A stretch of 35,483 bases of DNA. Origin: a virus. This document shows, piece by piece, positions 16,081 through 25,815 of this stretch (position 1 is its first letter; each line of letters opens with the position of its first letter). The stretch is taken from IMG/VR virus record IMGVR_UViG_3300025674_000155, positions 1-35,483 of that record. The stretch is one strand, 5' to 3'. Below the pieces are notes generated by a model, which saw nothing but the letters and a program-made list of their open reading frames with translations, was not told where the DNA came from and did no database searches. A program made the translations under genes and the position numbers.

Positions 16081-16566
16081 TCATCCTCCGGATACAGCCA
16101 TTATCATATAAATAAATGCTGCTGCCATTGCTCCAACTGCAAGAATGATTGTAATTCCTTGAGTGACTGCGTCTGACATTTCTTTTGCTTTACGTGCCTT
16201 TTCTTTCTTAGCCTGTAATGCTGCTTCCTTTGCTTCACGTATCCGTTTTGCTCTGAGGTCTACGATTGACTGCCATGTACCGACACCAAAACGATTATCA
16301 ATCATAACACGCATTTTTTGCATTTGCTCTTGAGCTAATTTGGCATCGATAACTTCTTGGGCGACTGACTTGATACCAAGTTGATCACCAACACCATGAC
16401 CTGCTTTTGCGGCACGTGCTTTTTGACACTCTTCCTCTCCTTTAAAGAGGTCTTCGATTGTATCACCAATCTCACTGATATCCTTTACGGTATCAATGTT
16501 GCTCTTAATAAAGTCCGTTGCTTGTTTGACAAGTGCAATACCTGTCAGCACTTCTGCGACTACCAT
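16081..16566 (-). CDS. Unknown membrane-anchored protein, possibly virion or lysis related (161 aa)
   Basis: Minus-strand gene with a Shine-Dalgarno-like TAAGGTAG upstream of its ATG. The 161-aa protein has an amphipathic N-terminus (EVLTGIALVKQATDFIKSNI), a charged coiled-coil-like middle rich in Lys/Ala/Glu (REAKEAALQAKKEKARKAKE), and a C-terminal transmembrane segment (ITIILAVGAMAAAFIYMIMA). I do not recognise the family; the layout suits a tail-anchored virion or lysis-associated factor. A TATAAATA on the minus strand at 16630-16637 could be its late promoter. Confidence 0.72.
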   Translation of the reverse strand: MVVAEVLTGIALVKQATDFIKSNIDTVKDISEIGDTIEDLFKGEEECQKARAAKAGHGVGDQLGIKSVAQEVIDAKLAQEQMQKMRVMIDNRFGVGTWQSIVDLRAKRIREAKEAALQAKKEKARKAKEMSDAVTQGITIILAVGAMAAAFIYMIMAVSGG

Positions 16567-16701: not shown

Positions 16702-17715
16702 ATGAATAAATTTTTAATTGCTGCAGCAGCAGTAATGACAGTAGCGTGGGCAACGGTTGCTCAGGCAGATCCGTTTAAGGTTGGTTTCGTATATGTGGGA
16801 CCAGTCGGCGATCACGGTTGGACATATATGCATGATAAAGGCCGTCAGCAAGTTGAAGAACACTTTGGTGATGCCGTTGAAACTATCTTTGTTGAATCAG
16901 TACCAGAAGGACCAGATGCAGAACGTGTAATGCGTAATATGATTGCAGAAGGTGTAGATATGATCTTTACCACATCATTTGGTTATATGGAACAAACTGT
17001 AAAAGTTGCCAAAGAGAATCCTGATGTACTCTTTGAACATGCAACTGGTTATAAAACTGCACCAAACCTTTCTGTATATTCCTCACGTTTTTATGAGGGT
17101 CGTTATGTACAGGGTGTGATTGCTGGTCATATGTCCAAAGCAGGTAAGGCTGGTTATATTGCATCATTTCCAATTCCAGAAGTGATTCGTGGAATTAATG
17201 CATTTTATCTTGGCGCAATCTCTGTAAATCCAGATTTTGATATTGATGTTGTATGGGTAAACACATGGTATGATCCACCAAAAGAAGCAGATGCAGCAAA
17301 AGTTTTGATGGCAGCAGGTGCTGATATTATTACTCAGCATACAGATTCTCCTTCACCATTGGCCGCGGCCTCTGCTAATGGCATTAAAGGTTTTGGTCAG
17401 GCATCAGATATGATTCAGTTTGCACCTGATACTCAGTTGACTGCTATTCTAGATGAATGGGGACCTTATTATATTGCTCGTGTACAAGCAGGAATTGATG
17501 GCACATGGAGTGAAACCAATACTTGGGGTGGTATGGATACAGGAATGGTTGATATGGCGCCAATGACAAATATGGATCCAGAACTTGCTGCACATGCCGA
17601 GCATATTGCACATCACATTAAGACAGGTCACTTCAAACCTTTTGGTGATCTTGACGATGGGGCACTTGCAACCATGATGGAATATGTTGACGGATTGGAT
17701 GCAGCAAAACCCTAA
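16702..17715 (+). CDS. BMP-family ABC-transporter substrate-binding protein
   Basis: The 337-aa secreted protein belongs to the Bmp/Med/PnrA group of periplasmic binding proteins, whose studied members bind nucleosides or purines. The signal peptide covers about residues 1-22 with cleavage after AQA; there is no lipobox Cys, so it should be a free periplasmic protein. Family features are KVGFVYVGPVGDHGWTYMHDKG, MIFTTSFGYMEQ, YKTAPNLSVYSSRFYEGRYVQG, ADIITQHTDSPSPL and ILDEWGPYY. The gene is full length and A+T-rich like its neighbours, so it is long resident. No permease or ATPase is nearby, so it would have to use a host transporter. It has its own promoter. Confidence 0.9.
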   Translation: MNKFLIAAAAVMTVAWATVAQADPFKVGFVYVGPVGDHGWTYMHDKGRQQVEEHFGDAVETIFVESVPEGPDAERVMRNMIAEGVDMIFTTSFGYMEQTVKVAKENPDVLFEHATGYKTAPNLSVYSSRFYEGRYVQGVIAGHMSKAGKAGYIASFPIPEVIRGINAFYLGAISVNPDFDIDVVWVNTWYDPPKEADAAKVLMAAGADIITQHTDSPSPLAAASANGIKGFGQASDMIQFAPDTQLTAILDEWGPYYIARVQAGIDGTWSETNTWGGMDTGMVDMAPMTNMDPELAAHAEHIAHHIKTGHFKPFGDLDDGALATMMEYVDGLDAAKP

Positions 17716-17716
17716 G

Positions 17717-17724
17717 TATAAATA
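17717..17724 (+). promoter_or_regulatory. Candidate late promoter (TATAAATA) before tmRNA
   Basis: Exact TATAAATA two nt after the BMP gene stop and just before the tmRNA acceptor piece. A start about 7 nt downstream (near 17731) would coincide with the apparent 5' end of the tmRNA precursor. That position makes it a credible promoter for the tmRNA and possibly for the following cassette. Confidence 0.5.
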
Positions 17725-17729
17725 GAATT

Positions 17730-17962
17730 GTTCGATGAAGCAAATCGAAAGGTAAACTGGACGGGGGTGCGATACCCCCCGCCTCCACCATAACATTATG
17801 GGGGCGAAATAGGATCGACAGGTATTGAATAGAGATGTGGAGAACAACGGCTGATCGCGTAATAGATCAATTAAGTAAATGCAAACGATAACTTTGCACC
17901 TGAGATGCGCCTAGCGGCATAATCTCTGGGCCCGCCGGAGCCTCGAAACAGAATCCGGCAAC
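17730..17962 (+). ncRNA. ssrA: Circularly permuted (two-piece) tmRNA
   Basis: The 3' acceptor piece comes first: a GGGGG TGCGATA CCCCC T-arm (17763-17779) and CGCCTCCACCA (17780-17790) including an encoded CCA. After a 9-nt spacer the coding piece begins with GGGGGCGAAATAGGATCGACA (17800-). GGGGGCG pairs with CGCCTCC to form a 7-bp acceptor stem with G3.U70, the alanine identity pair. The tag frame follows at 17881-17922, with a GAGAT/ATCTC stem around its stop and a terminal GCCGGA/TCCGGC hairpin (17934-17959). tmRNA rescues stalled ribosomes and tags proteins for proteolysis. This permuted order is typical of alphaproteobacteria. Outer ends are approximate. Confidence 0.93.
17881..17922 (+). 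other. tmRNA tag reading frame, ANDNFAPEMRLAA
   Basis: The resume codon GCA at 17881 opens a frame encoding ANDNFAPEMRLAA and ending in TAA. The ANDN start and the LAA end match tmRNA degradation tags; the C-terminal LAA is what ClpXP recognises. The FAPEMR middle is unusual to my eye and may be phage-specific. Confidence 0.9.
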
Positions 17963-17976
17963 TTTATGGATTTGAC

Positions 17977-18489
17977 ATGTTATTTTATTGGTACATTTTT
18001 TATTTTATCTTTGCGACAATCGGCGCAACATTAGGATTGCATAGATATTGGGCTCATAGAAAAGGCTCTAGAAATATCTGGTTTGAATGGATATCGTTAA
18101 TCTGTGCATTAATAATTGGCGTTTATAAACCCATAAGCTGGATAGGAATTCATAGACTACATCACAAATACAGTGATACCGCAAAAGATCCACACTCACC
18201 AAAATATCAAGGCTTTTGGAAAGTATTTTTATCTAGATGGGAAGGTCACATACCTTATCATTTGGTAAAGGACTGTGTAAGAAATCCTAGAATGAGATTC
18301 TTTCAGAGGTATGGCAAATACCTTATTTGGCCTGTAATTATTTTTTCTCCGTATACAATCATTCTAGGATATATTGGAATAGGAATATTAAATACTGCGG
18401 GACATTCGAATGGGCCAGCTAATCACTGGTGGATAAACATATTGGCACCATTTGAAGGGAATCATAAGGATCACCATGCAGGTTTATGA
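17977..18489 (+). CDS. Compact fatty-acid (acyl-CoA) desaturase
   Basis: The 170-aa membrane di-iron desaturase contains all three histidine boxes in order: LGLHRYWAHR, IHRLHHKYSD and GNHKDHH. Hydrophobic segments flank them (IFYFIFATIGATLG, WISLICALIIGVY, LIWPVIIFSPYTIILGYI). Bacterial acyl-CoA desaturases are usually 250-320 aa, so this is unusually short and ends soon after box three. It would introduce a double bond into membrane fatty acids. It begins 15 nt after the tmRNA with only a weak ribosome site, and the next gene starts inside its last codons. It heads the oxygenase cassette. Confidence 0.82.
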   Translation: MLFYWYIFYFIFATIGATLGLHRYWAHRKGSRNIWFEWISLICALIIGVYKPISWIGIHRLHHKYSDTAKDPHSPKYQGFWKVFLSRWEGHIPYHLVKDCVRNPRMRFFQRYGKYLIWPVIIFSPYTIILGYIGIGILNTAGHSNGPANHWWINILAPFEGNHKDHHAGL

Positions 18490-19474
18490 TATAAAAGGAG
18501 AATGTCCTCAGATTATAAAGGATATATTCCATGATGAGATAGAGTATATTGCAAACAGTGATTTACAATTAAAAGAAAATTATTCAATTACAAGATTAAA
18601 ATTGGATTCAATGATTTCCTTTGATGTTCTTATCGATGATGAGATGGACCTAGTTTGCTTTGGTGGATTACAAAAGATTAATGATGAAATTGCTAGAGTA
18701 TCCTCAAGACATTATATGTCACAAAAGTATATAAAGACTTGGAAACAAGATAGGTTTAGGCCAAACTGGCAGTATCTTGTACCAAAGCAAATTCAACACG
18801 CATATGATTTGGGATACAAGGGTTTATTTTGGTCTGCACACATCTACAAGAAAAAGTCTCTGTTTGATCTTACATGTAAGAATGCCGAAGAGTTTACCGA
18901 TATAAAATTTACACCTCTGTCTGGGCTATATAACATATATGGTGTAGGTCAAAGGGTGTGTCAGATTGGTGACCATGAATTAGGTTTTGCAAAAGAGAAT
19001 ATCTTTATGAATGATGATTATTTTTACCAATACAAAGATGAGCTATACACCTTGTTGAATAATCCACCAGCCAATGTAAACGTAGGTGGTTGGTTAGATC
19101 ATGATTCTGGTCTCATTGATATTGTAGAACTTGAATCACATCCCATAGTTAACTACCTTGGTAAATACTTTGATGACATAAAAAAAGTTATGGTTGGTAA
19201 AACAAAAGGTGGAGTAATACCACCACATCAAGACCAGAGTGAACGAGATGATAACATGCACATGAAGATTAGAGTAGACGGAGACTGGTCTAGTTTCTAT
19301 GTGCAAGATAAAACATACGGATGGAAAACATATTTCCCGAATACGGCAAACATAGCAATATTTGATAACGAAAAGAATGTGCATGGGGTAGACACAGATG
19401 AGTTTTTAATTCTGATACCCTATGGTAAATTGAAAAGAGAAATATATGAACGAGTTGATACAGAAAGTCGCTGA
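18476..19474 (+). CDS. 2OG-type oxygenase-like protein with N-terminal GNAT-like region
   Basis: 332-aa protein starting at ATG 18476 (AAGGA five nt upstream). The C-terminal third has a cupin-type Fe(II)/2OG core: PPHQDQ gives H251 and D253, MHMKIRVDGDW follows, and NVHGVD gives H303, then FLILIPYGK. The N-terminal ~170 residues, with an EIARVSSRHYMSQKYIK stretch and QIQHAYDLGYKGLFW, loosely resemble a GNAT acyltransferase fold; this half of the call is weak. A two-domain protein would be unusual. It overlaps the desaturase by 14 nt and the next gene by 29 nt. Confidence 0.65.
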   Translation: MQVYDIKGECPQIIKDIFHDEIEYIANSDLQLKENYSITRLKLDSMISFDVLIDDEMDLVCFGGLQKINDEIARVSSRHYMSQKYIKTWKQDRFRPNWQYLVPKQIQHAYDLGYKGLFWSAHIYKKKSLFDLTCKNAEEFTDIKFTPLSGLYNIYGVGQRVCQIGDHELGFAKENIFMNDDYFYQYKDELYTLLNNPPANVNVGGWLDHDSGLIDIVELESHPIVNYLGKYFDDIKKVMVGKTKGGVIPPHQDQSERDDNMHMKIRVDGDWSSFYVQDKTYGWKTYFPNTANIAIFDNEKNVHGVDTDEFLILIPYGKLKREIYERVDTESR

Positions 19475-20270
19475 AGAAGGAATTGTAGTACTCAAAAATC
19501 AGCATATGTCTGACGAAGAGTTCTACCAGAAAAATCTAACCTGGGGTAAACACCAAGCATCTGGCATCCATGCATGTCACGAAGATTATCCTATCATATT
19601 TCGCGTTACAAATAAAAAGTTACCTAACGGCAAACAAGGACTGTTTAGTCGTGGTTTTTTAGATTGGCACTGTAATAATATGTTCTGTGTGGATCCAGAA
19701 GAAGTTGTATGTCTGTGGGGTAAAAAGGTAATCAAGAATGCTCCTACCATCTGGGCACATTGTACCAATATGTACCGAGACCTACCAGAAACTTTGAAAA
19801 AAGAATTGGATGATGTTTGGGTTACAATGTCTAATATCCATAACATCAAAGATGGTGGTCGGATCTATACCGGCGCAGGTGATCTTGATATGGAAGATGT
19901 AATCAAACTTGATAAGTGGAACTTCCGTACACGTGAAGGATTAGAAGCAGGGCTCTTTGATCCAAACCTTAGTGCCAAACAATTAAAATCAGGTCGATAT
20001 CTAATCAAAGTAAAAAAGAAGCTTGTGAGGATTCACCCAGTGACCAGAGAGAAAGTTCTATACTTCCCATTCGGTCATATGTCAGATTTTCCACATAAGG
20101 ATGAGTTAGTCGAACGACTGATGCAACCACAATATATCTACACCCATGAATGGGAGGAGGGTGACATCGTGTTCTCGGATCAACTTATGACAATCCACAA
20201 GCGTGATGCCACACTTGATACAGAAGAGAAACGAGAACTGTACAGGACTACTTTTTATTATGATGTATGA
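19446..20270 (+). CDS. TauD/TfdA-like dioxygenase homologue with HxN triad variant
   Basis: The 274-aa protein follows the TauD/TfdA plan: an N-terminal EGIVVLKNQHMSDEEF (gVvvl..q.Ls.ee.), then LFSRGFLDWHCNNMF where the metal-binding HxD is expected, TIWAHCTNMYRDLP, and a C-terminal EGDIVFSDQLMTIHKRDA...YRTTF with distal His251 and Arg. The proximal motif reads His75-Cys76-Asn77, so the usual Asp ligand is Asn. That change could weaken iron binding or indicate altered chemistry. It overlaps both neighbours (29 nt and 11 nt). The family is clear; activity is uncertain. Confidence 0.8.
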   Translation: MNELIQKVAEEGIVVLKNQHMSDEEFYQKNLTWGKHQASGIHACHEDYPIIFRVTNKKLPNGKQGLFSRGFLDWHCNNMFCVDPEEVVCLWGKKVIKNAPTIWAHCTNMYRDLPETLKKELDDVWVTMSNIHNIKDGGRIYTGAGDLDMEDVIKLDKWNFRTREGLEAGLFDPNLSAKQLKSGRYLIKVKKKLVRIHPVTREKVLYFPFGHMSDFPHKDELVERLMQPQYIYTHEWEEGDIVFSDQLMTIHKRDATLDTEEKRELYRTTFYYDV

Positions 20271-20859
20271 TTATTTTAGATCTGCTAGGAAAAAGCAAAG
20301 AGCATCTCATTTAAGATATTTTCTAATGCACATGATGTACAAATACGGGTTTGACTTTGATACATATATTGATATTGGCGCATGCAATAGTGTTGAGTTG
20401 GATCAATACTGTGACTTATTTGATAATGTGGTTGCATTTGAGCCTAATCCAGAAGCTACCATTACACCTAGGGATAATCTGATACTGCATCAAAAGGCAT
20501 TATCTGACCTAGAAGAAGTCCGTAGTTTCCACATTGACATGACCATACCACATTACTCTACTTTGAACAGATGGGAAATGGACAAGTATATCCCAGAAGG
20601 TCACGATTGGAAAATCATGCAAGTCACTACAGCAAAACTTGATGATTACGAATTAAAGGCCAGTTGTATAAAAATTGACACAGAAGGTGAGGATGATGCC
20701 GTCGTGCGTGGCGCGTACAACACTATAGCAGAATGGAAACCTATACTTTACCTTGAGTTTATGAGCCAAGAAACAGAACAATTACTTATAGATATAGGGT
20801 ACACAGTTGAATATTCATCATGGATAGACAACTTTCTAATTCACGAGGATTACATATGA
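20260..20859 (+). CDS. FkbM-family SAM-dependent methyltransferase
   Basis: The 199-aa protein matches FkbM methyltransferases: motif I TYIDIGACNSVELDQY, acidic strand VVAFEPNPEA, ALSDLEEVRSFHID, TTAKLDDYELKASCIKIDTEGEDDAVVRGA and WKPILYLEF. Such enzymes O-methylate sugars or polyketide hydroxyls, and in bacteria often modify surface glycans. ATG 20260 or 20263 overlaps the TauD-like stop. The stop overlaps the next start as ATGA. Within this cassette it could cap hydroxyls created by the oxygenases; that is inference. Confidence 0.87.
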   Translation: MMYDYFRSARKKQRASHLRYFLMHMMYKYGFDFDTYIDIGACNSVELDQYCDLFDNVVAFEPNPEATITPRDNLILHQKALSDLEEVRSFHIDMTIPHYSTLNRWEMDKYIPEGHDWKIMQVTTAKLDDYELKASCIKIDTEGEDDAVVRGAYNTIAEWKPILYLEFMSQETEQLLIDIGYTVEYSSWIDNFLIHEDYI

Positions 20860-21476
20860 TTGATATGGTAAAAATTATTGATGACATTCCGTCCTTTCAG
20901 GATGCTTGTCAGGTATGTGCAGAATATGGAGAACTTGATTTAGAATTAGACTTAAAAAAAGTTACACAGGAAGAGGTTAACACCGTGCCTTTACAGACAT
21001 GGCACCAAGATGGCTCTCATGTTCGGTACTTTCCAAAATACAGTGCATTGTGGTGTGAAACAGCAGAGGAAAATGCACCCATTACTCAAATTATATCTAC
21101 TCGACTGCCAGATGTAATAGCTGAAAAATATCAAAATGAATCTGTGGTGATGGACTTTAAAAAAACAATCGATGAAGGTTCATTCTTTAAATTTAAAAAG
21201 GCTTCACACGCAAGATTATATGCAATGAAGGCCAATAAAACCCCTATGTCCTTAGTAGAGCAAGATGAAAAAGGATGGTTTACAAGGTGGTGTCCTTTCC
21301 TAAAAGATGCAGAAAAATATAAAGATCTTGAAAATATTATCTTGGCCAGAGATATCACAAGTATTAAATGGAAACCAAACAGACTTATAATAATGGAAAA
21401 TAAAGCTACATTACATAGACGTAAGCCTGGAACATATAATGGAGACAGAGTACTGTGGAGAGCCTATATAAGGTAA
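20856..21476 (+). CDS. TauD-like Fe(II)/2OG dioxygenase with intact triad
   Basis: 206-aa protein beginning at the ATGA overlap. QTWHQDGSH provides His50 and Asp52, RYFPKYSALWCETAEENAPI fits the TauD strand after the metal motif, and ATLHRRKPGTYNGDRVLWRAYIR provides His187 and the Arg pair for 2-oxoglutarate. The complete facial triad predicts a working hydroxylase of an unknown small substrate. It is shorter than TauD (283 aa). It is coupled to the SGNH gene by TAATG. Confidence 0.82.
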   Translation: MIDMVKIIDDIPSFQDACQVCAEYGELDLELDLKKVTQEEVNTVPLQTWHQDGSHVRYFPKYSALWCETAEENAPITQIISTRLPDVIAEKYQNESVVMDFKKTIDEGSFFKFKKASHARLYAMKANKTPMSLVEQDEKGWFTRWCPFLKDAEKYKDLENIILARDITSIKWKPNRLIIMENKATLHRRKPGTYNGDRVLWRAYIR

Positions 21477-22045
21477 TGATCATGGGGGCAAGTAACGCCG
21501 TCAATGATGATAAAACTTGGGTTGATTATCTTTCCTGCGATAACTATACCATACATAATGCAGCTGTAAGAGGAACATCTTGTGATGTTCTAATAGATCA
21601 ATGGGAGCAAAACAAGTGGTTTGCACCTGATCTTGTTTTGCTTGATACACCACCTCTTTTTAGATTTCATCTTTTTGATATTGCAATAGGTGGACTTGGT
21701 AAAGATGTTTTATATACAGACTGGTTAAAAGAATCAAAGCTTTATGCTTGGTATAAAAAGCAGTGGCCTTATAGAACCAGAGAATCGTTTGATATTGTTG
21801 TAAATTCGTTAAACGATGCCTTGAATGATACGCACAATAGAAGAGGTATGGAAACTTTATATCGCAGACAAAGACAGCACGTTGATCACTTAAAGTTATT
21901 GACCCATGTTATTGAGTTACCTCAACCTAATGGTGATCTTGACGAATTGCATTATACAGAAGAAAGACATCAGGAAATAGCAGACATAGCAGAGACCATT
22001 ATCAATGAACAAATACGCAATGAACTTGTATTACACACATCTTGA
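21476..22045 (+). CDS. SGNH/GDSL-like hydrolase
   Basis: The 189-aa protein opens with IMGASNAVNDD, where the Ser in the GAS turn would be the SGNH nucleophile (block I). NAAVRGTSCDVLIDQW looks like the block II Gly region, VLLDTPPLFRF stands at the block III position, and DELHYTEERHQEIADI supplies the Asp-x-x-His pair of block V. Members hydrolyse O-acyl esters on lipids or glycans. No signal peptide, so cytoplasmic. The start was chosen at ATG 21476 because it overlaps the upstream stop and places the nucleophile near residue 6. The next gene begins inside its 3' end. Confidence 0.7.
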   Translation: MIMGASNAVNDDKTWVDYLSCDNYTIHNAAVRGTSCDVLIDQWEQNKWFAPDLVLLDTPPLFRFHLFDIAIGGLGKDVLYTDWLKESKLYAWYKKQWPYRTRESFDIVVNSLNDALNDTHNRRGMETLYRRQRQHVDHLKLLTHVIELPQPNGDLDELHYTEERHQEIADIAETIINEQIRNELVLHTS

Positions 22046-23018
22046 TATCAATTATGATTCTGAATTATTAATAAAAGAGTCAAAGATTGCATCTTATAAA
22101 CCATTTGAAAGTGGTTATAACAATGGAACATTCTTTGCGTATGCACCAACTTGGCTACAAGGCCGCATAACAAACTTTGATAATTTTCCGGAAATTAAAA
22201 GACTTACTGAGTATATAGCTCACAAGATTAATTCGTCAGATGTCCGCCCAAGATTTTATAAGCAGGAAGCCAATACCGCAGTTCCTATGCACAGAGATCA
22301 AAATACAAAGTGCTGTGTTAATATAGTCCTATCCGAGAAAGCAGCTCCAATAACTTTTGAGGACATAGGTGATATAGATTATAAATGTGCTTTGTTAAAT
22401 ATTACCCAAAGTCATGAGGTAAAAGAATATCCTGAAGAAAGACTGCTCTTAAAATTTTCAATATTTGATGTTGATTACGAAGATGCTGTGGAAAGATGGA
22501 CCAGTCCTGTGATCAAGATTGATCAAGGAGTTGATGTCGAGAAAATTCTTTTAGAAACAAGTATAATAGACTACGATGGCCAAATATGTTTACAAGGAGT
22601 AAAAGGTAATCTTGACCCTCATCTTGGTATAGGTTGGTCTGGAGGTTCTAAAAGTTGGGAAAGACCTCAGACACATTCATATAAATCTCACGAGTTTGAT
22701 CAAAGCATATTTGACTGCAATTACACCAATTCAATATTAGAAAAATATGGTATGGTTCACACTAGACTGATGGACGTAAAACCAAAAAGTTGTTACTCGT
22801 ATCATACAGATATTAGAAAAAGATTGCATATACCACTTGAAACAAACGACCATTGTTGGTTCATAATTGACAAACAGTTACACCATTTGCCAGCTGATGG
22901 TTCCGTTTATTTGGTTGACACAATGTTGCCACATACGTTTATAAATTGCGGTTCAGAACCTAGAACACATATAGTGTCTCAGTCAATAATCAATCCAAAT
23001 TTATTTAATTTATCATGA
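22005..23018 (+). CDS. Tandem-domain 2OG-type oxygenase (two HxD...H cores)
   Basis: The 337-aa protein contains two consecutive double-stranded beta-helix-like cores. The first has PMHRDQNTKCCVNI (H96, D98) and TQSHEVKEY...RLLLKF (H137). The second has YSYHTDIRKRLHIPL (H267, D269) and MLPHTFINCGSEPRTHIV (H310 plus Arg), close to the aspartyl/asparaginyl beta-hydroxylase pattern. Two complete triads in one chain are unusual. ATG 22020 is an alternative start. It overlaps the SGNH gene by 41 nt and is 3'-overlapped by the minus-strand oxygenase gene by 40 nt. Confidence 0.75.
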   Translation: MNKYAMNLYYTHLDINYDSELLIKESKIASYKPFESGYNNGTFFAYAPTWLQGRITNFDNFPEIKRLTEYIAHKINSSDVRPRFYKQEANTAVPMHRDQNTKCCVNIVLSEKAAPITFEDIGDIDYKCALLNITQSHEVKEYPEERLLLKFSIFDVDYEDAVERWTSPVIKIDQGVDVEKILLETSIIDYDGQICLQGVKGNLDPHLGIGWSGGSKSWERPQTHSYKSHEFDQSIFDCNYTNSILEKYGMVHTRLMDVKPKSCYSYHTDIRKRLHIPLETNDHCWFIIDKQLHHLPADGSVYLVDTMLPHTFINCGSEPRTHIVSQSIINPNLFNLS

Positions 23019-23470
23019 ACTTCTTCCCAAGGATGCCTTAAACAGAATTTAAGGATCAATCTATGGTTTGGATCCTTTTCAACTCCATGCATCTTTTGTC
23101 CTACTTGAATAAATGCACATTCGTATGGATAAGGTTCATGCTCTATGTGAATCACTGGAATCGTGTCAAGTAAGTTAATGTTAATTGACACCATATTGTC
23201 TTCATCTTTATGATGTTGCAACAAAGTATTCGGAAATTGATAAGAGAATCTAGGGAAGTTATTCATACCATAGATATTCAAGTCCATCTCAACCTCTTTT
23301 GTAAGTTCCTTTAAAGGATTATCGTCCTTTATCATAAGCTGATACCAAAACAATTCTTGCCTTCTAGGCACAGACCAATGCCATTGACCTTGCTGAATAT
23401 TCTCGTAGAATATATCTCGCCATTTTTGTTTATTAATTTCGTAATCAAGGTGAATTAAATTTTTTTTCAT
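22979..23470 (-). CDS. Minus-strand 2OG-type oxygenase-like protein (163 aa)
   Basis: 163-aa protein with TLLQHHKDEDNMVSININL (H87, D89), a strand IPVIHIEHEPY, and VGQKMHGVEKDPNHRLILKF (H128, R137), fitting a short Fe(II)/2OG core like that of the first half of the neighbouring tandem protein. It is convergent with the cassette and shares 40 nt of 3' overlap. No Shine-Dalgarno is seen before ATG 23470. A GATAAATA on the minus strand (23527-23534) may be its late promoter, so it may be expressed at a different time from the rest. Confidence 0.7.
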   Translation of the reverse strand: MKKNLIHLDYEINKQKWRDIFYENIQQGQWHWSVPRRQELFWYQLMIKDDNPLKELTKEVEMDLNIYGMNNFPRFSYQFPNTLLQHHKDEDNMVSININLLDTIPVIHIEHEPYPYECAFIQVGQKMHGVEKDPNHRLILKFCLRHPWEEVHDKLNKFGLIID

Positions 23471-23487
23471 TTTATTTAAAAAAACAC

Positions 23488-23516
23488 TTTACATTATCTG
23501 TAGAATGGTTTATAAT
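23488..23516 (+). promoter_or_regulatory. Early-type promoter P9
   Basis: TTTACA (23488-23493), 17 bp, TATAAT (23511-23516), with AAACAC upstream and ATG-GTT before the -10. The leader has AAAGGAGCTAAAA before ATG 23548. It is divergent from the minus-strand oxygenase gene. Confidence 0.87.
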
Positions 23517-23526
23517 AGTATTATAA

Positions 23527-23534
23527 TATTTATC
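23527..23534 (-). promoter_or_regulatory. Candidate late promoter on minus strand (GATAAATA)
   Basis: Read on the minus strand the octamer is GATAAATA (fits NATAAATA), 57 nt upstream of the minus-strand gene's ATG. The arrangement mirrors that at 16630-16637: a late-type element for a minus-strand gene placed at a plus-strand early promoter. Confidence 0.4.
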
Positions 23535-23547
23535 AAAGGAGCTAAAA

Positions 23548-23859
23548 ATGATAAAATATACCGTTTACCAAATTGCAAAAAGTGAAAAAAGTGATCCACG
23601 TGGCTTTGATGCTATGATTGATGGTTCACTTGATGTATCATTTTTTAAATCAGCATATAAAGCTGTTTGTGAAATTGAGGCAGTTGACCTTAACCATGTA
23701 TTCGAAATCGGTAATATTGGTCCAGATGAAAAAATCAGACGTTTTGATTTTCAACCAATGCATTCAATTTCGGTTGGTGATGTGATCTATGATTCATTAC
23801 TTCGTGAATATCATGTTGTTCAAGGTCTTGGTTTTAAACGTTTGGAAGGAGTTGCATAA
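23548..23859 (+). CDS. Unknown early protein with YodL-like features (103 aa)
   Basis: First gene behind promoter P9. The 103-aa sequence starts KYTVYQIAKSEKSDPRGFDAM and ends with an HSISVGDVIYDSLLREYHVV segment followed by a GF motif, a pattern reminiscent of YodL-like domains in mobile elements. I hold that link loosely. The function of such proteins is unknown, although some occur among antirestriction genes. It is coupled to the next gene by TAATG. Confidence 0.7.
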   Translation: MIKYTVYQIAKSEKSDPRGFDAMIDGSLDVSFFKSAYKAVCEIEAVDLNHVFEIGNIGPDEKIRRFDFQPMHSISVGDVIYDSLLREYHVVQGLGFKRLEGVA

Positions 23860-24858: not shown

Positions 24859-25815
24859 ATGGCACATCAAATTGAAACAATGGCATACGCAGGAGAAGTT
24901 CCATGGCATGGGCTTGGTGTTCCTGTATCTAATGATTTAACACCAGTACAGATGATGGAAAAGGCTGGTGTTGATTGGAGAGTTGATGAGGTTGAGTGTT
25001 TTATCAAGACTCGTAATGGTGAAGTCAAGACTGGTCAAAAGGCTCTGGTCCGTAGTACAGATGATAAGATCCTAACCACTGTTGGTGAAAATTGGAATCC
25101 TGTTCAGAATGAAGATGCATTCGATTTCTTTGCTGAATATGTAAATGCCGGCGATATGGAAATGCATACTGCTGGTTCCTTAAAGGATGGCCAAATTGTT
25201 TGGGCATTGGCAAAGGTAAAGGATTCATTTGAATTATTCAGTGGTGATCGTGTGGATTCATATCTTCTGTTCTCTAATCCTCATCAATATGGTAAATCAA
25301 TTGATATTCGTTTCACACCTATCCGTGTGGTATGTAATAACACGTTGACATTTGCATTGGACAGTATGTCTGATCGTCAAGTAAAGGTTGGTCATCGTAC
25401 TGTATTTGATGCATCTTCTGTAAAACAAACTCTTGGTATTGCAACAGATAAAATGCAACAGTATAAAGAAGTTGCAGCATTCCTTGGTTCAAAGAGGTTT
25501 ACTGCAGATACATATATTGAATATCTGAATACTGTATTCCCACGGACTTCAGATAAAAGAATCCGTAAAGGTATGGATCAGATTGAAATGTTATCACGGA
25601 ATGCAAAACTTTGTCATGATGCTTTGGAACAACAACCAGGTGCCGAGTTTGCAGAAGGTTCATGGTGGCAGGCATTTAATTCTGTAACCTTTATTACGGA
25701 TCATGTACAAGGTCGTAATCAGGAAAATCGTCTGGCAAACAGTTGGTTTGGTTATAATCAGTCACGGAAACGTGATGCACTTAAAACAGCATTGGAATTT
25801 GCGGAGGCAGCATAA
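24859..25815 (+). CDS. DUF932 phage/plasmid-like protein
   Basis: The 318-aa protein matches the DUF932 / phage-plasmid TIGR03299 family. It begins HQIETMAYAGEVPWHGLG, then VDWRVDEVECF, LTTVGENWNPVQNEDAFDFF, TAGSLKDGQIVWALAKV, YLLFSNPHQYGKSIDIRFTPIRVV and CNNTL, all typical landmarks. These proteins are widespread on phages and plasmids and their biochemical role is unknown. ATG 24859 follows AAGGAGATTATATA. It is coupled to the RHH gene (TAATG). Confidence 0.9.
   Translation: MAHQIETMAYAGEVPWHGLGVPVSNDLTPVQMMEKAGVDWRVDEVECFIKTRNGEVKTGQKALVRSTDDKILTTVGENWNPVQNEDAFDFFAEYVNAGDMEMHTAGSLKDGQIVWALAKVKDSFELFSGDRVDSYLLFSNPHQYGKSIDIRFTPIRVVCNNTLTFALDSMSDRQVKVGHRTVFDASSVKQTLGIATDKMQQYKEVAAFLGSKRFTADTYIEYLNTVFPRTSDKRIRKGMDQIEMLSRNAKLCHDALEQQPGAEFAEGSWWQAFNSVTFITDHVQGRNQENRLANSWFGYNQSRKRDALKTALEFAEAA

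Follow-up and report, generated by a model that had tools for sequence, protein, structure and literature searches.

A recurrent desaturase and 2-oxoglutarate oxygenase gene cassette located behind a permuted tmRNA gene of a marine T4-like phage

Introduction

The 35.5-kb virus record IMGVR_UViG_3300025674_000155, whose full length of 35,483 nucleotides is called the window here, contains at positions 17977 to 23470 a cassette of eight tightly packed genes. The question raised by this locus is whether the genes work together and on which substrate their products might act. The virus is a T4-like marine myophage encoding a DNA polymerase, UvsX and a DnaB-type helicase, the latter being 70% identical to that of Phage C48C1 (Kyanoviridae). 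A sequence-only reading had proposed that a desaturase, five 2-oxoglutarate (2OG) oxygenases, an FkbM methyltransferase and an SGNH hydrolase constitute a tailoring unit which hydroxylates, methylates and deacylates a lipid or glycan, or acts on DNA or virion proteins. Our analysis demonstrates a recurrent set, comprising a desaturase and several 2OG oxygenases along with TauD, GNAT, methyltransferase, aminotransferase and radical-SAM genes, in many marine phages as well as three Bdellovibrionota genomes. We give an even chance to the interpretation that the cassette is a viral form, subject to horizontal exchange, of a cellular pathway for tailoring or biosynthesis that acts on a small acyl-containing substrate.

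Results and Discussion

A scan of IMG/VR with an alignment of the desaturase yielded 194 related loci, 80 of which were kept. These and loci from other searches were dereplicated at 95% identity, resulting in 57 representatives. AspH-family genes were present within -7/+8 kb of the desaturase in 53 of them. At least one 2OG oxygenase open reading frame (ORF) was detected within 4 kb in 55 of the 57 desaturase loci (202 ORFs), compared to 8 of 80 control loci (Fisher p 6e-27), a value to be read in the light of phylogenetically non-independent representatives and of 2OG profiles that were built from the same neighbourhoods and hence favour the desaturase loci. The control comprised 80 marine viral loci centred on the unrelated gene Bmp; bacterial relatives of the desaturase served as a second control for the enrichment. 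Thus, the related phages do not carry the genes singly in unrelated places. Within the group of closest relatives (60-93% identity), shuffled AspH, TauD, GNAT, NodU-type, nitroreductase and radical-SAM genes follow the short desaturase, which in most loci is the first gene of the set. Close relatives have a permuted transfer-messenger RNA (tmRNA) gene and the short desaturase as constant elements, the other genes being shuffled. FkbM-like genes were found in only five and an SGNH gene in three of the 57 loci, so both are optional and the hydroxylate-methylate-deacylate scheme of the sequence-only reading is not supported. One locus, L014 (IMGVR_UViG_3300030333_006922), possesses a run of many radical-SAM/SPASM-like genes, SGNH-like and aminotransferase-like genes and a TauD with an HxA motif.

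The DNA identity to the related phage L002 is 92.0% across positions 17717 to 23792 and only 67-84% in the flanks. Compared to L065, only the desaturase and both flanks can be aligned, the cassette being replaced. This pattern indicates that the block 17717..23792 has been exchanged between phages as a module. The gene order is conserved in sister phages, and dN/dS (nonsynonymous to synonymous substitution) values of 0.02-0.14, determined against two relatives for all cassette genes with an estimable dS (0.03-0.05 for the AspH gene on the minus strand), reveal that the cassette genes are under purifying selection. Patchy dS values of TauD-like protein 1 (TauD1) and of the minus-strand AspH point to extra recombination within the block. 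Such separate histories, as well as the highly variable gene content 3' of the desaturase, are what one would expect if the tmRNA gene simply marked a hotspot behind which unrelated auxiliary genes gather that do not belong to one pathway. However, the same kinds of enzymes recur at unlinked sites in other phages and in bacteria, which, together with the 2OG enrichment and the exchange of the whole block, renders a mere accretion unlikely.

The cultured Pelagibacter phage Mosig EXVC030M (MT647606) harbors, at approximately 54.7-62 kb, a desaturase, a TauD with an HxN iron motif, GNAT, AspH and methyltransferase in one gene run. The same kinds of genes are clustered in the window, the TauD proteins being 25% identical. 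There are several differences between the two clusters: Mosig encodes GNAT and AspH by two neighbouring genes, which are fused in the window; the Mosig run additionally contains peroxiredoxin, FMN reductase and aminotransferase genes and is devoid of FkbM and the tandem AspH; and it adjoins tail fibres and DegT/NodU-type genes. Among 80 relatives of the desaturase from bacterial genomes, cassette-type neighbours were identified at only two loci. One of the two is on a contig of a Bacteriovoracaceae metagenome-assembled genome, which contains homologues of most Mosig genes, i.e. a near-complete Mosig-type cluster, close to genes of a chromosomal kind that were identified by eye, such as aromatic-amino-acid (aro) and RND-type pump genes. 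Two further Bdellovibrionota genomes, out of 291 sampled, possess related clusters on contigs of 349 kb and 505 kb. Since three genomes are concerned and the neighbouring genes are chromosomal, misbinning is an unlikely source of these clusters, which possibly represent a bacterial gene-cluster type that has not been described. Bdellovibrionota include predatory bacteria and their relatives. Chromosomal oxygenase/radical-SAM/desaturase clusters of this phylum (L105, L207, L215-L217) also contain PP-loop (Asn-synthase-like) and HTTM genes; a carrier protein was not recognised among the ORFs scanned. Taken together, the conserved order in sister phages, the exchange as a block, purifying selection and the recurrence of the same kinds of genes in viruses and bacteria support the proposal that the genes form a tailoring unit.

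Because the bacterial clusters lie on contigs with chromosomal genes, tailoring of a small molecule or lipid is favoured over a modification of DNA or of virions, targets that had been considered in the sequence-only reading and have become less likely. The window does contain two genes for TET-associated glycosyltransferases (PF20691; 4025-4984 and 5152-6156, plus strand) beside the DNA polymerase gene, with UDP-glucose dehydrogenase and epimerase genes nearby, which suggests that the phage DNA is hypermodified. It might be assumed, therefore, that the oxygenases and the methyltransferase of the cassette act on DNA bases too. Yet the two genes are located about 12 kb away and outside the exchanged block, none of the ORFs scanned gave a TET/JBP match, a membrane desaturase does not fit this role and related clusters reside on bacterial chromosomes. 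DNA hypermodification by the cassette was therefore judged highly improbable.

On one side of the cassette are the replication genes, on the other a TIGR03299 (DUF932-like) gene at 24859; its flanks are made up of the tmRNA gene, a cell-wall-hydrolase gene and the TIGR03299 gene. No tail-fibre gene was seen among the annotated ORFs. A large, nonsyntenic accessory island of marine T4-like phages, whose cassettes are gained and lost, has been described as the host recognition cluster of pelagimyophages, a hypervariable region with tail fibres between VrlC and gp14 (PMC7029224). The island of the window differs from it by its location behind the tmRNA gene, between the cell-wall-hydrolase and TIGR03299 genes, but it belongs among the hypervariable accessory islands of this kind. 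The pelagimyophage islands, in which glycosyltransferases and radical-SAM cassettes lie next to tail fibres, have been suggested to modify the O-chain (PMC7029224). By analogy, the main rival of the small-molecule interpretation, with which it overlaps except that the target is a glycan, is a remodelling of the host surface, in which lipopolysaccharide or another surface glycan would be decorated to exclude competing phages. The tail fibres and DegT/NodU-type genes next to the Mosig cluster are in line with this, as are genes for Mtd_N-domain (tail-fibre-like) proteins, which adjoin the desaturase in many loci. On the other hand, no glycosyltransferase was identified in the cassette, a role in glycan modification is not obvious for either the desaturase or AspH and the copies on bacterial chromosomes are unlikely to serve phage exclusion. 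Remodelling of a surface glycan is thus conceivable but doubtful.

The left edge of the cassette is formed by a permuted, two-piece tmRNA gene of the alphaproteobacterial type (17691..17963, plus strand), which was detected with Rfam (RF04321, 121 bits; RF01849, 95 bits); ARAGORN gave no call. It ends 13 bases 5' of the desaturase ATG and encodes the tag ANDNFAPEMRLAA at 17881-17922. A permuted tmRNA gene precedes the desaturase in all eight relatives with sufficient upstream sequence; in L025 and L026, one gene separates the two. Permuted tmRNAs are known from marine myophages, namely from the OM43 phage Melnitz, which also has a glutamine riboswitch (PMC9004378). Both tmRNAs are of the alphaproteobacterial two-piece type and stem from marine myophages, but the Melnitz gene is located upstream of a transcription coactivator gene and that of the window borders an oxygenase cassette that can be swapped, an arrangement for which no description was found in the Melnitz paper (PMC9004378). 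Four related phages, L022, L023, L032 and L065, also have a glutamine riboswitch (RF01739), located approximately 2-3.6 kb ahead of the desaturase. The tmRNA gene of the window phage, as those of L001 and L009 but not of L002 and L011, is adjoined by a gene (16702-17715, plus strand) for an ABC transporter substrate-binding protein of the PnrA/Bmp type (168 bits in Pfam) whose start resembles a signal peptide; relatives of this protein are encoded on 214 viral contig stretches. Farther upstream, a minus-strand gene (16081-16566) for a protein of 161 amino acids with a C-terminal hydrophobic stretch is conserved ahead of the tmRNA/desaturase hotspot in nine loci.

The leader gene of the cassette (17977..18489, plus strand) encodes a short membrane fatty-acid-desaturase-like protein of 170 amino acids. 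All nine histidine ligands of the three boxes and NxxxH were aligned (HRYWAH, HRLHH, NTAGH, HKDHH). The region beyond the third box is missing, as the protein ends three residues past the last histidine pair in the window, L002 and L011, while the Mosig desaturase runs about 30 residues longer past this box. The latter was the only match in a tblastn search against isolate phages (FA_desaturase, 38% identity). Ordinary bacterial relatives show EGWHNNHH in the third box, viral desaturases mostly EG[N/Y]H. In a FastTree phylogeny with long branches, the viral desaturases and the cluster-linked sequences of L105 and L106 constitute one starred group. Since the cluster desaturases of the bacterial genomes G099 and G135 are of the EGWH type, the cluster association is with the enzyme class, beyond the short clade. 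Cyanophages also encode membrane lipid desaturases (vFAD), but the enzyme studied here is much shorter and near 2OG oxygenases in nearly all of its loci.

All eight ORFs were found as proposed, seven of them end to end on the plus strand and one on the minus strand, whose 3' end overlaps that of the tandem AspH gene by 40 nt. When better start codons were chosen, the overlaps became shorter, amounting to 14 nt between the desaturase and GNAT-AspH genes and 29 nt between GNAT-AspH and TauD1. TauD1 and FkbM overlap by 11 or 8 nt, the junction between FkbM and TauD-like protein 2 (TauD2) is a 4-nt ATGA and that between TauD2 and SGNH a 1-nt TAATG (22 nt with a GTG start), and the SGNH and tandem AspH genes share 26-41 nt. 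The ATGA and TAATG junctions are typical of translational coupling.

Five oxygenase proteins had been predicted, and this number is correct, but they comprise six oxygenase domains, not all of which are canonical. TauD1 (19446..20270, plus strand; 89 bits, E 6.4e-25) and TauD2 (20856..21476, plus strand; 35 bits, E 2e-8) both matched the Pfam TauD model (cut-off 27). While TauD2 has the canonical iron motif WHQD, with HxD present in all eight rows of its family, TauD1 contains WHCN, i.e. HxN in place of HxD/E, but has kept the distal histidine and the 2OG arginine. These two residues are retained in all 36 rows of the TauD1-type family, in which 27 HxN, seven HxH, one HxA and one HxD motifs were counted. 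Five additional TauDs from the two other Bdellovibrionota genomes are all HxN, and all three unrelated cellular TauDs with a readable motif are HxD. Scans of the phyla of G008 and G002, which had no positive control, revealed HxN-TauDs in 0 of 398 and 0 of 247 cases. In 2OG halogenases the carboxylate is replaced by Ala or Gly and a halide is bound; TauD1 has Asn, its L014 relative Ala. The TauD variant D101A lost hydroxylation without gaining halogenation (PMC2767507), and human AspH functions with two histidines and water (PMC13168262). The best NCBIfam match of TauD1, with a score far under the model cut-off, was ScoE, an oxygenase acting on a fatty-acyl amine. Because TauD1 is conserved, it is probably active, and the altered iron site suggests that its chemistry may be unusual.

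The remaining oxygenases are of the AspH type. The tandem protein (22005..23018, plus strand) contains two HxD..H..R domains, the C-terminal of which matched PF05118 (42.5 bits, cut-off 22.6, E 7.8e-11). The closest PDB match of this half is the beta-hydroxylase Cpz10 (7v4f; E 1.8e-14, 77 residues aligned). The tandem N-terminal half, the GNAT-fused AspH and the minus-strand AspH gave no direct Pfam match and were assigned by homology and motifs. The convergent minus-strand protein (22979..23470; 163 amino acids) is homologous to the tandem N-terminal half (30% identity) and its HxD..H..R motif is kept in 14 of 14 relatives. In the AspH families, HxD..H is retained almost without exception. 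It is also present in the GNAT-fused domain, which lacks the usual 2OG-binding arginine after the distal histidine; AlphaFold2 did not resolve an oxygenase fold in this C-terminal part, whose assignment comes from the motif only. NCBIfam gave no match for the AspH, TauD2 and SGNH proteins, nor did tblastn against isolate phages for the GNAT-AspH, TauD2 and SGNH proteins. Cpz10 hydroxylates a small nucleoside-amino-acid intermediate of the caprazamycin pathway (PMC9814697). It shares the AspH-type family with the tandem protein, a resemblance at the family level only, but is a single-domain enzyme of a streptomycete nucleoside-antibiotic pathway. As the AspH family also contains protein hydroxylases, AspH and TauD might act as hydroxylases of virion proteins, among them tail fibres, or of the translation machinery of the host; the Mtd_N genes adjoining several clusters and the tmRNA gene directly upstream would agree with that. 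However, the constant partner is a membrane desaturase, the near-complete cluster on a bacterial chromosome has no virion genes nearby and the tandem AspH is closest to a small-molecule hydroxylase, which makes protein modification quite improbable.

The other predicted identities were confirmed for the desaturase, both TauDs, AspH, FkbM and the GNAT fold, the SGNH assignment being weak. The second gene (18476..19474, plus strand, with an ATG start instead of the TTG at 18452 given in the ORF list) encodes the GNAT-fold/AspH-type fusion. GNAT structures occupy the top ranks of the Foldseek list for its N-terminal domain (best 5jq4, E 8.5e-4, prob 1.00), obtained with a moderate AlphaFold2 model (pLDDT 60-80). 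This domain matched no Pfam family, and a clear R/QxxGxG/A acyl-CoA loop was not discernible by eye. GNAT homologues are encoded by separate genes in other clusters. The FkbM-family methyltransferase (20260..20859, plus strand) exceeded the cut-offs of PF05050 (39.6 bits, E 8e-10) and TIGR01444 (41.9 bits); a viral scan outside close relatives gave matches at only 28% identity. The putative SGNH/GDSL-type hydrolase (21455..22045, plus strand; alternative start 21476) matched Lipase_GDSL_2 with E 0.0097 and 16.9 bits, under the cut-off of 32.9. Its GxSN and DxLH motifs are conserved, the block III asparagine is not evident and the AlphaFold2 model reached a pLDDT of 41, with only three sequences in the alignment.

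If the cassette represents a tailoring pathway for a small acyl-bearing substrate, its enzymes would act in the cytoplasm of the infected host and at the membrane. Most simply, this substrate would be an amphiphile of the membrane, for example an aminolipid or a lipid-linked precursor of the envelope, or else a metabolite resembling an acyl amino acid. The desaturase would change the acyl chain, AspH and TauD2 would hydroxylate the chain or the head group, GNAT and the methyltransferase might cap the newly made positions and TauD1, lacking the carboxylate iron ligand, could perform a non-standard oxidation. The phage might benefit from an altered host membrane or surface, or from a released compound, and swapping of the later enzymes would vary the product. 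The constancy of a membrane desaturase in the clusters counts for this interpretation, as do the PP-loop and HTTM genes of the bacterial clusters and the resemblance of the tandem AspH to Cpz10 and of TauD1 to ScoE. Ornithine-lipid synthesis modifies an aminolipid with a similar mix of enzymes, OlsB being a GNAT, OlsC a member of the AspH family and OlsE a di-iron membrane enzyme; this likeness at the level of enzyme classes is a lead only. Several points weigh on the other side. The desaturase is unusually short and only putatively active. No assembly enzyme, be it a carrier protein, ligase or glycosyltransferase, was identified among the cassette genes, so that the host has to supply the substrate. 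As FkbM and SGNH are optional, the pathway of the window may differ from the core pathway, and the resemblance to Cpz10 and ScoE is at the family level only. A more specific version, in which marine phages share with Bdellovibrionota a modular pathway for a secondary metabolite or aminolipid, a new Asn/His/Ala TauD-like clade would carry out a non-hydroxylating oxidation, for instance halogenation, desaturation or isonitrile-type chemistry, and the product would be diversified by swapping cassettes behind the tmRNA gene, appears rather unlikely.

Conclusions

The upstream permuted tmRNA gene, the HxN site of TauD, the mosaic way in which the cassette is replaced and its cellular counterpart had not been noticed in the sequence-only reading. 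A desaturase-AspH-TauD cluster was not found in the literature, of which subscription papers were thinly covered, so that this absence is no proof of novelty; a widespread desaturase-oxygenase tailoring pathway apparently is undescribed. Phage 2OG oxygenases are usually listed singly as auxiliary genes; here, they are tied to a defined, recurrent set with a constant desaturase. The TauD1 clade provides a natural test of iron enzymes without a carboxylate ligand. As a cultured representative exists with Mosig on Pelagibacter HTCC1062, in addition to the bacterial chromosomal copies, the role of marine phage oxygenases may be addressed by a single experiment on a cultured phage.

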